Shown: piece after piece, positions 3,921-16,347 of the stretch | Position numbering within the stretch: the stretch's first letter is position 1 | Layout: the number at the start of each line of letters is the position of its first letter | Assembly: GCA_025963715.1 (NCBI GenBank) | Contig: JAOQAG010000041.1 | Location: forward strand, 1 to 64,000 | Origin: Bacteroidota bacterium | Lineage (GTDB): Bacteria; Bacteroidota; Bacteroidia; 2-12-FULL-35-15 | DNA length: 64,000 nucleotides | Direction of reading: 5' to 3' | Notes under the pieces: model-generated | Databases searched by the model: none | What the model was told of the DNA's origin: nothing | The model's input: the letters and a program-made list of their open reading frames with translations, nothing else | Made by a program: the position numbers and the translations under genes

Positions 3921-4373
3921 TTTCACCACTAAGGCACAAAATTTTACCACTAAGCGCACTAAGAAAAAAGAGAGGAAGTTTTTTTGGATAGTGTTGTTGC
4001 GAGGTCTTTTCGCCCGAAGCAATCTCATTAACTATTCGTGTATCTACTAAATACCAATATTTACTAATATACCAATCTGTGTGTGATTAAAAATACGTGC
4101 AGGATCCATTCCCCTCTTGAGAGGGGCTAGGGGTGTGTTATACGGATAACAAACAGAAATGCCCGCCTGAACATTTCGGCCAGGAAACTACGAATCTGTG
4201 TATCTACTAAATACCAAATTTTACTTATGTACTAATCTGTGTTTATTAGTTTGTGACCAAAGTCTGCTAAAATTAATTAACTTTTTTCTTCTTCGTGCCT
4301 TCGTGGTAAAAAACGCTTCGAAGGAGCATCGCAAACACGGTCTAATATCTAACATCCAATATCCAACAGCTGA
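3921..4373. repeat. intergenic mosaic of dispersed repeat modules
   Basis: No gene is seen in these 453 bp. In order it holds: a 'CACCACTAAGGCAC' type module; a half copy of the CTTTTCGCCCGAAGCAATCTCA repeat (about 3998-4027), otherwise found as a full inverted repeat at 26629 and 36807; a module ending in TCTGTG near 4035-4080; a hairpin CCCCTCTTGAGAGGGG near 4112; and a module about 57 bp long (4145-4200) present in reverse orientation at 21288-21345. Confidence 0.7.
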
Positions 4374-9048: not shown

Positions 9049-10770
9049 ATGGAAAAACGTTGGGTGATAAAACCGAAAGCAGATGAAGTGGTGGTGAGTT
9101 CTTTGGCCTCTGAGCTGAAGATTGATAAGGTGTTGGCAAATTTGCTGGTTCAGCGCGGCGTAACTTCTTACGATGAAGCAAAAAAATTTTTCCGGCCAGG
9201 CTTTGACGAGTTACACGATCCTTTCCTGATGAAGGACATGGACAAAGCGATCATCCGCCTGGAGCGGGCGATCAAAAACAATGAAAAAATATTGGTATAC
9301 GGCGATTACGATGTAGATGGAACTACAGCTGTTTCGCTGGTGTATTCTTTTTTGCTCAACCTTCCGGAGATCGCGGATAAAGGACAAATTGAATTTTACA
9401 TTCCCGATCGTTATTCCGAAGGTTACGGCATTTCTTTCCAGGGAATTGATTATGCGCAGGCCAATAACTTTACACTGATCATTGCACTGGATTGCGGAAT
9501 TAAAGCCATTGATAAAGTAGCGTATGCCAATGAGCGTGCTGTTGATTTTATCATCTGCGATCATCACCGTCCCGGCGATACATTGCCGGATGCAGTTGCT
9601 GTGCTTGATCCGAAGCGCGATGATTGTTTTTATCCTTTTGATGAATTGTGTGGTTGTGGTGTAGGATTTAAACTGGTGCAGGCATATTCGCAAAAAAATA
9701 ACATTGCTTTTTCGGAGCTGGAACAATACCTGGATCTGACTGCTATTTCTATCGCTTCCGACTTAGTGCCGATCGTTGGAGAAAACCGGATCCTGTGTTA
9801 TTTTGGCTTGCAGCAAATAAATAAAACGCCACGCAAAGGAATCAAAGCCATTCTTGAATTAGCGAATATCAAAAAAGAAGTGACGATGAACGAGCTGGTG
9901 TTTACCATCGGGCCGCGCATTAATGCGGCGGGAAGATTGGAAACCGGGCGCAATGCGGTGGACCTGCTGATTTCCGATAACCTGGCGGATGCTGCCATGA
10001 ACGGAAAAAATATCAACATCACCAATACGGAACGCAGAAGCATTGATGTAACCATCACACAACATGCGCTGAGCATGGTGGAAGAAAATGTGGAATTGAT
10101 CAAACGTAAAACCACCGTTCTTTTTTATCCGGAATGGCATAAAGGCGTGGTGGGAATTGTGGCATCGCGGATGATCGAAAAATATTACCGCCCTACGATT
10201 ATCTTAACAGAGTCGAATGGTAAAGCAACCGGCTCTGCGCGCAGTGTAAAAGATTTTGATGTGTACGATGCAATTGAAGCCTGCAGCGATCTGCTGGAGC
10301 AATTCGGCGGACATAAATACGCAGCGGGATTAACGTTGAAATTAGAAAACCTGGAAGCGTTCCAGCAAAAATTTGAAGAAGTGGTAAGCGCTACCATTCA
10401 GGACCACATGCTGATCCCGGAGATCGAGATCGATGAGGAAATTGAATTGAGCGACATTACCCCGAAATTTTTTCGCGTGCTCAACCAGTTCTCACCGTTT
10501 GGGCCGGGAAACATGTCGCCGGTATTTATGTCGAAAAGCCTCGTGGACAAAGGCGCTGTTCGCATTGTTGGAAACAACCATTTAAAAATGGACATTCACA
10601 GCAATGATAAAGAAACGGAAGTTTTTCCGGCTATTGCATTCGGACAGGCCAAACATTTTGATGATGTGTTGCGCCAAAAAACATTCTGCGCCTGTTATGC
10701 CATTGAAGAAAATGTGTTTAACGGAACCGTTTCTTTGCAGCTGAATGTGAAGGATATGAGGATCGAATAA
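9049..10770 (+). CDS. recJ: single-stranded-DNA-specific 5'-3' exonuclease RecJ
   Basis: A DHH-superfamily exonuclease of 573 aa, usual RecJ length, acting in recombination and mismatch repair. The motifs present are YGDYDVDGTT (84-93), ALDCG (146-150), CDHHRPG (170-176), the DHHA1 GGHKYAAGL (420-428), and a C-terminal OB-fold region. The metal-binding Asp/His set (D86, D88, D148, D171, H172, H173) is intact. The N-terminal VIKPKADEVVVSSLASEL is typical of Bacteroidota RecJ. It is a single gene with a likely promoter at 9022. Confidence 0.97.
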   Translation: MEKRWVIKPKADEVVVSSLASELKIDKVLANLLVQRGVTSYDEAKKFFRPGFDELHDPFLMKDMDKAIIRLERAIKNNEKILVYGDYDVDGTTAVSLVYSFLLNLPEIADKGQIEFYIPDRYSEGYGISFQGIDYAQANNFTLIIALDCGIKAIDKVAYANERAVDFIICDHHRPGDTLPDAVAVLDPKRDDCFYPFDELCGCGVGFKLVQAYSQKNNIAFSELEQYLDLTAISIASDLVPIVGENRILCYFGLQQINKTPRKGIKAILELANIKKEVTMNELVFTIGPRINAAGRLETGRNAVDLLISDNLADAAMNGKNINITNTERRSIDVTITQHALSMVEENVELIKRKTTVLFYPEWHKGVVGIVASRMIEKYYRPTIILTESNGKATGSARSVKDFDVYDAIEACSDLLEQFGGHKYAAGLTLKLENLEAFQQKFEEVVSATIQDHMLIPEIEIDEEIELSDITPKFFRVLNQFSPFGPGNMSPVFMSKSLVDKGAVRIVGNNHLKMDIHSNDKETEVFPAIAFGQAKHFDDVLRQKTFCACYAIEENVFNGTVSLQLNVKDMRIE

Positions 10771-14787: not shown

Positions 14788-14793
14788 AGGAAG

Positions 14794-14928
14794 ATGAATG
14801 TATAAATCATAATACTACAATCTAAATTGTTTAGTAAATGATAATTTCGAAGCGCGTCCCCCTTGTGCGTTTGTAATAGTGCGCAAGAGAAGTGGAACGA
14901 AGGATGAAAAGGGGCGGGGAAACAATGA
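14794..14928 (+). repeat. truncated second copy of the DUF559 element left end
   Basis: This segment repeats 14960-15097 with an offset of 166-167 bp and few differences. It contains the 26-bp terminal repeat (14841-14866) and extends through the position equivalent to the start codon of the DUF559 gene (ATGAAC at 14925). The match stops right after that start codon, so it is a left end whose gene body is missing. Confidence 0.85.
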
Positions 14929-14959
14929 ACAGCGATGATGCAAGGAGATTGTTAAGAAA

Positions 14960-15543
14960 ATGAATTTATAAATTATAATACTACAATCTAAATTGTTTAG
15001 TAAATGATAATTTCGAAGCGCGTCCCCCTTGTGCGTTTGCAATAGTGCGCAAGGGAAGGGGAGCGAGGGGATGAAAAGGGGCGGGGAAATCATGAACAAC
15101 AACTACAATCACTACAATAAAAACCTAAGACCATTTGCTGTACAACACCGGAACGGTTCTACACAATCAGAAATTCGTGCGTGGTGCGAGTTGTTCAGAA
15201 ACAAAAAAATGCTAGGCTATCCATTTCTTCGCCAACGGCCGGTTGGTAACTACATTGCCGATTTTATGTGTAAGGAATTAAAACTGATCATCGAAATAGA
15301 TGGTCCGTATCATCAGTTCAGATATAAAGAAGATCTGCAACGCGAACTGAATTTAAATAAATTAGGCTTTACTGTTTTACGGTTTACAAATGAGGAAATA
15401 AGGACGCAGATCAATAATGTAGAGCGTGCAATTGTTTTGTGGATAGAGGAAAACAAAAAGCATTCGTTATCCCGCGCACCATCCCCCAGCCCCCTTCGCT
15501 AGCGCGCTACCTTCCATACAAGGGGGACGCGCTTCGAAATTAT
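14960..15543 (+). mobile_element. candidate DUF559 nuclease element with terminal inverted repeats
   Basis: A 26-bp sequence at 15007-15032 is repeated perfectly in inverted orientation at 15518-15543, and the DUF559 nuclease gene (15092-15502) lies between them. The last codons of the nuclease lie in the CCCC-rich right-end sequence. A truncated left end lies just upstream (14794-14928). No transposase is present. Mobility is inferred from the repeat structure and the duplicated end; I cannot see a clear target-site duplication. Confidence 0.5.
15092..15502 (+). CDS. DUF559 domain endonuclease-like protein
   Basis: A 136-aa protein with the DUF559 (Vsr/PD-(D/E)XK-like) fold. It has SEIRAW (E27), FLRQRPVGNYIADF (45-58, D57), LIIEIDG (64-71, E68 and D70), the following H74, and a basic helix before LGFTVLRFTNEEI. 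The start is set at MNNNYNHYN (15092); the upstream frame is read through the repeat. The tail SRAPSPSPLR is encoded by repeat DNA. Family members are small nucleases of uncertain role, found scattered and often multi-copy in genomes. The flanking inverted repeats suggest it travels with them. Confidence 0.88.
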   Translation: MNNNYNHYNKNLRPFAVQHRNGSTQSEIRAWCELFRNKKMLGYPFLRQRPVGNYIADFMCKELKLIIEIDGPYHQFRYKEDLQRELNLNKLGFTVLRFTNEEIRTQINNVERAIVLWIEENKKHSLSRAPSPSPLR

Positions 15544-15584
15544 TATAGCGTAAAAAATAAACTTTATCGCGGTGTGATTTATTA

Positions 15585-16212: not shown

Positions 16213-16244
16213 TTAACAGATCCCGGGTCAGGCCCGGGATGACA
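16213..16244. repeat. 32-bp palindromic intergenic repeat, copy 2
   Basis: It matches 44-75 with a single difference (A to G in the spacer between the two CCCGGG halves). It lies in the 181-bp gap between dnaG and the lipoprotein gene, just upstream of the latter's start. Confidence 0.75.
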
Positions 16245-16347
16245 GTTTGCAATAATGAACCAGCTTTTTAGAAAACACAGATTTGTAAATTCGTATTCAT
16301 TCGCTGTACCCAGCAAAACTTTAAACTTTTGAACTTTAAACTTTGAA

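Follow-up and report, generated by a model that had tools for sequence, protein, structure and literature searches.

The window, by which the whole stretch of 64,000 nt analysed here is meant (C12:1-64000, C12 being the contig), carries a DUF559 nuclease gene enclosed by inverted repeats, with an additional, gene-less copy of the left repeat upstream of it. The features of the locus are the following:

15092..15502, + strand: DUF559 (PF04480) nuclease gene, ATG start, 136 aa, from a profile match and a structure model
14956..15088, + strand: left end of the unit, with the outer 26 bp (15007-15032), a palindromic REP-like core and an AT-rich upstream part; second copy of a direct repeat
15480..15546, - strand: right end of the unit, with the 26-bp end inverted at 15518-15543; codes for the nuclease's last codons and stop
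14790..14922, + strand: headless duplicate of the left end, with the equivalent of the start codon and no nuclease sequence; 26-bp end at 14841-14866
4111..4137, + strand: a REP-like motif, further copies of which flank a different DUF559 gene of the same genome (L007/L120)

The earlier note had described this layout of 26-bp ends and gene-less duplicate, and its positions were confirmed: an identical 26-mer occupies 14841-14866 and 15007-15032 and is inverted at 15518-15543. The direct repeat (14790-14922 / 14956-15088) extends over 133 nt with 88% identity and the inverted repeat (14968-15032 / 15518-15582) over 65 nt with 74% complementarity. Two further details of that description also proved correct, namely that the last nuclease codons fall within the right arm (the gene ends at 15502) and that the headless copy stops after the start-codon region. 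Placing the same geometry at 2000 random positions of the window gave perfect inverted matches no longer than 13 nt, with the exception of one of 18 nt and eight of 26 nt, the eight being taken to overlap the DUF559 locus itself. The unit has an inverted-repeat (IR) score of 32, whereas the best of 40 shuffles reached 13. Hairpin folding of the arms modestly beats that of shuffled sequences, 13/200 of which folded as well as the left arm, 2/200 as the right arm and 77/200 as the headless copy. This copy had been attributed to an element that lost its gene, a nested insertion or a tandem duplication; it most resembles a left end duplicated in tandem. Extra arm copies are present in 14 of 54 units. 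The 26-bp end has no further copy in the genome when up to three mismatches are allowed, an outcome that the earlier note had listed among those that would refute its reading. A dnaG-adjacent DUF559, lipoprotein or TraB-like gene was absent from all 29 loci of relatives examined; the dnaG neighbourhood is non-syntenic in them and therefore does not polarise the presence of the window unit there. A separate repeat family is represented by the palindrome GATCCCGGGTCAGGCCCGGGATGACAG at 16220-16247, with near-identical palindromes at another locus of the genome (L307, contig C18).

The window protein matches PF04480 with 103.1 bits (E 1e-29; cut-off 20.6), which places it in the DUF559 family. The HUH Y1 transposase domain is absent from it, DUF559 and a sub-threshold MTES_1575 being the only domains matched. 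Its AF2 model (pLDDT 90.9) is nearest to the solved folds 3hrl (NGO0050; E 4e-9) and 3r3p (E 1e-3), with 1vsr (Vsr) further off (E 0.25). The second of these, the catalytic domain of the homing endonuclease I-Bth0305I, aligns with a TM of 0.73 by target and was recovered in a second search with E 3.5e-6. Residues D57, E68, D70 and H74 are invariant across 25 alignment rows. The protein is thus predicted, from its model, to have a PD-(D/E)XK / Vsr-type nuclease fold. Substitution ratios demonstrate purifying selection on the nuclease, with pN/pS of 0.07-0.31 in 18 of 19 pairs and values for in-gene pairs similar to those of the host enzyme; the very close pair L112/L116 gave 0.49.

Inverted arms around DUF559 genes

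Other DUF559 genes without such ends would, according to the earlier note, have refuted its reading, and this does not hold: inverted palindromic repeats enclose all three DUF559 loci of this genome, the repeat sequence differing from locus to locus. One of the other two (L005) sits within the 1388-aa open frame of methionine synthase (MetH). At the other (L007) the flanking palindrome contains a motif with 111 copies across the genome (53 forward, 58 reverse; 0 for the reversed-pattern control), so that a gene flanked by a genome-dispersed repeat is found at L007 and not at the window unit. DUF559 is present in 31 of the 36 genomes of the genus, where 62 places were examined, the window included. 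An IR score of at least 15 was reached by 55/62 domains against 13/1240 random control segments from the same loci, and a score of at least 20 by 46/62 against 0/1240. The seven units below 15 are L084b, L088 (at a contig end), L095, L111, L117, L119 (truncated) and L127. Among named genomes, represented by the best 80 loci of a scan, 42 loci scored at least 15 (7/1600 controls) and 38 scored below it; the former include records from Bacteroidota, a cyanobacterium, Pseudomonadota, Cloacimonadota and Calditrichota. Of the 18 in-gene units in this set, just 5 reached that score. At L115 and L116 (G009, G027) the right arm forms tandem arrays that are read as a repeated peptide at the nuclease C-terminus.

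These arms bear on the view of DUF559 as a chromosomal repair enzyme of the Vsr type, with regulatory or incidental repeats. The fold is related to that of Vsr, and a role as a mismatch-repair endonuclease has been proposed for VsrA, a DUF559 protein of Caulobacter (PMC12907096). Unlike Vsr and VsrA, the window unit is flanked by arms and has no linked cytosine methyltransferase, no methyltransferase of any kind having been found among six scanned neighbours. The patchy presence and variable location of DUF559, its occurrence inside unrelated enzymes and the paired arms of 55/62 units also speak against a repair function, which is highly improbable as the explanation.

The relationship between arms and nucleases was followed along the DUF559 tree of the genus (59 rows, omitting L127, L126 and L119), which has two well supported clades, A and B, and along a wider quick tree (159 rows, omitting L127, L126, L119, L084b, L123, L088, L111, L090 and L124). 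The window nuclease belongs to clade A as sister to L106 of G035 (support 99/94 in the genus tree, 70 in the wider one), and the wider quick tree puts nucleases of Pontibacter fetidus and Fodinibius salsisoli close to it as well. The arms of these tree neighbours share the core of the window arm, CCCCCTT..AAGGGGG and then GGGGGATG; in the window itself an additional hairpin interrupts this core. Among the 54 of 62 units that score at least 15 and belong to the two clade lists (23 in A, 31 in B), arm similarity tracks nuclease identity, with a Spearman coefficient of 0.33 in clade A (1/2000 permutations as high) and 0.51 in clade B (0/2000). By regex counts, the arm tail points inward in 19 units of clade A, outward in none, both ways in one and neither way in three, and in clade B outward in 12, inward in 3, both ways in 6 and neither way in 10; the reversal of the arms between the clades is hence a tendency only.

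The dispersed motifs give a similar association for one nuclease type and a mixed one for another. All 8 genomes that encode the L007 nuclease subclade hold at least 10 copies of the L007-type motif, as do 3 of the 28 that lack it (Fisher p 5e-6, uncorrected for the relatedness of the genomes), the three being G003, G007 and G009, which hold 11-15 copies despite having no cognate nuclease. The L106-type motif has 12 copies in G035, which has the cognate, none in the genome of the window, and 22, 16 and 14 copies in G009, G033 and G015, which do not have it. In 30 fetched loci of the window's genome, the L007-type motif often stands in inverted doublets, oriented -,+ and about 111-124 nt apart among the copies listed.

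Two explanations of these repeats do without a role for the nuclease. Homologous recombination between dispersed repeats, present as terminators or structures, may have spread nuclease genes that are themselves blind to the repeats; solo repeats and doublets are indeed common, and the extra arms mentioned above fit as well. However, recombination of this kind predicts neither the co-variation of arm and nuclease nor a window arm that is absent elsewhere in the genome, and it leaves purifying selection unexplained, which makes it unlikely. Alternatively, the repeats may be REPs of the ordinary kind, mobilised by a RAYT (HUH) transposase, with DUF559 genes as passengers trapped between them. REPs and RAYTs are presented as an established pair in passages of PMC3733652, and the genome of the window has two RAYT-like genes; but the CCCC..GGGG motif is missing from their flanks, which carry either a different repeat or no repeat at all, while arm type tracks the DUF559 lineage and motif copy number the cognate DUF559. 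This second explanation is very unlikely. Near one of the RAYT-like genes (L130, contig C7) lies a near-perfect inverted repeat of a different kind, GTCACTAGGCGGAGCCTAGCGCC.

Empty sites are found in relatives. At the L110 locus, G033, G027 and G009 carry a stand-alone unit, as by match coordinates does G031, and the site is empty in G003, where 9 nt separate the matched flanks. In G035, G030, G005 and G019 the unit is absent and another short sequence takes its place, G026 has repeats without a nuclease and G020 a repeat of the other type. Inspection by eye revealed no target-site duplication, such as an IS element or MITE would leave, either at the junctions of this locus or at MetH; the relatives compared are diverged.

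Units within host genes

Part of the DUF559 units lie in frame inside other genes, defined by at least 90 open codons on each side: 20/62 in the genus, 18/80 among the named loci and 15 of 26 loci fetched class-wide (27 domains). The host proteins in the genus are the conserved enzymes MetH, LeuRS, IleRS, acetyl-CoA synthetase and PaaZ. The insertion sites were labelled as LeuRS before the editing domain (14), the MetH activation domain (10), the MetH linker (6), IleRS (5) and acetyl-CoA synthetase (5), with the remainder elsewhere; these names are motif-based labels, backed by Pfam for 9 of the proteins only. On the nuclease tree the labels cluster, requiring 26 changes against a shuffled mean of 57.6 (0/200 as low), and it is a single nuclease clade that resides in frame within conserved enzymes. 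Arms and host gene share one reading frame, which in 53 units stays open across the insert. Recurrent sites adjoining conserved motifs are also what homing elements show, and the in-gene units might be disguised inteins or introns. Against this, a Pfam search of 9 insert-bearing host proteins found no intein (Hint splicing) domain at E <= 1e-5, an Rfam gathering search of 15 sources found no intron family at an insert, and the frame stays open through the insert. The sole group II intron match (L011, 3113-3187) lies at a contig end, outside the DUF559 insert. Splicing elements in disguise are thus extremely unlikely.

Other in-frame arrangements were also observed. In L294 (G177) a DUF559 unit lies within recJ, a gene that in the window (9049-10770) is free of inserts. 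In L193 (Fodinibius salsisoli) a DUF559 domain of the window subclade is fused in frame before a sequence that we take to be HemF-like.

A MetH insert is also found in Flavobacterium frigidimaris (L236). The MetH site allowed occupancy to be compared across 32 of the 34 MetH-bearing genomes (G006 and G010 left out). It is empty in 18, holds a nuclease of type 1 in 4 and of type 2 in 5, and carries a remnant in 5, states being assigned by regex and length; under this rule G029, with 16 repeat-like aa, is scored as empty, and G002, with 21 aa and no clear repeat, as a remnant. On the host tree these states require 12 changes against 13.0 in shuffles (59/200 as low). Because chance gives as good a fit, occupancy of the site is independent of host phylogeny, and with filled and empty alleles side by side MetH displays the pattern of a homing element; the changes could be losses. 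In G015 and G033 the MetH flanks are identical at 843/894 and 416/441 positions (94.3% on both sides) and the nucleases at 50/104 (48%). Near-identical flanks around different nucleases indicate that at least one replacement at this site is recent. In G016 both arms are kept in frame and the nuclease is gone, which resembles the headless copy of the window. A structure model of the MetH insert was set aside for its mean pLDDT of 61.0. In MetH of G001, G018, G013, G014, G022 and G024, single in-frame repeats without a nuclease are located a few residues upstream of the main site.

A candidate class of mobile units

The window locus probably belongs, as a stand-alone unit, to a family of mobile units in which a Vsr/homing-type DUF559 nuclease lies between inverted REP-like arms. 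The earlier note had proposed that the nuclease and its ends form one mobile unit without a transposase. This receives support for the family as a whole from the ends of the paralogues, the co-variation of arm and nuclease, empty sites in relatives, gene-less remnants and turnover at one site, and as an interpretation it is partly supported. The best reading is a REP-like mobile unit in which a homing-type nuclease replaces the transposase, the window unit being a low-copy one. The nuclease would recognise its own hairpin arms, the cognate empty site or both, and cut the target, and the unit would be copied into the break through repair (homing) or single-strand processing. Arms would spread or persist without the gene as solo repeats, doublets and headless copies, and in-gene units would be translated as tolerated domains. 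The window copy itself has an intact, low-copy nuclease, diverged and elongated arms and a duplicated left end. Some of the patchiness may reflect loss rather than gain, and some units may be moved by recombination between repeats.

The proposed units combine traits of several known systems. They resemble REP/REPIN elements with RAYTs (REPtrons) in their short palindromic repeats, inverted doublets, solo genomic copies and dedicated DNA-processing gene flanked by repeats. They differ in the enzyme, which is of the PD-(D/E)XK/Vsr type and not an HUH Y1 transposase, and in lying in frame inside conserved enzymes. With I-Bth0305I and EDxHD homing endonucleases they share the fold of the catalytic domain (3r3p) and a conserved-gene site that is repeatedly occupied, with empty and filled alleles, whereas the inverted palindromic arms of their own, the lack of any intron or intein found and a frame that stays open as part of the host protein set them apart. 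Rickettsia palindromic elements are likewise palindromic DNA translated in frame within many genes, and passages of PMC10969869 that describe them name no enzyme; unlike them, DUF559 units carry a nuclease gene between two repeats. In L261, from a record titled as a Rickettsia typhi MAG (a doubtful name), a DUF559 domain lies in frame amid translated palindrome-like repeats, and this locus may bear on the enzyme behind the Rickettsia elements.

A literature search that covered few subscription journals returned no report tying DUF559 to repeats or placing it inside MetH or LeuRS. It is conceivable, at somewhat less than an even chance, that these units form a mobile-element class of their own, which homes without splicing: DUF559 and the hairpins recognised by it would travel as one, take up in-frame positions within essential enzymes as translated domains, and give rise to the dispersed palindromes of many bacterial genomes. 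If this is true, the widespread and uncharacterised DUF559 domain would acquire a function, palindromic repeats that RAYTs leave unexplained would have an enzyme named for them, and a homing-type nuclease would be seen to persist within essential enzymes without splicing.
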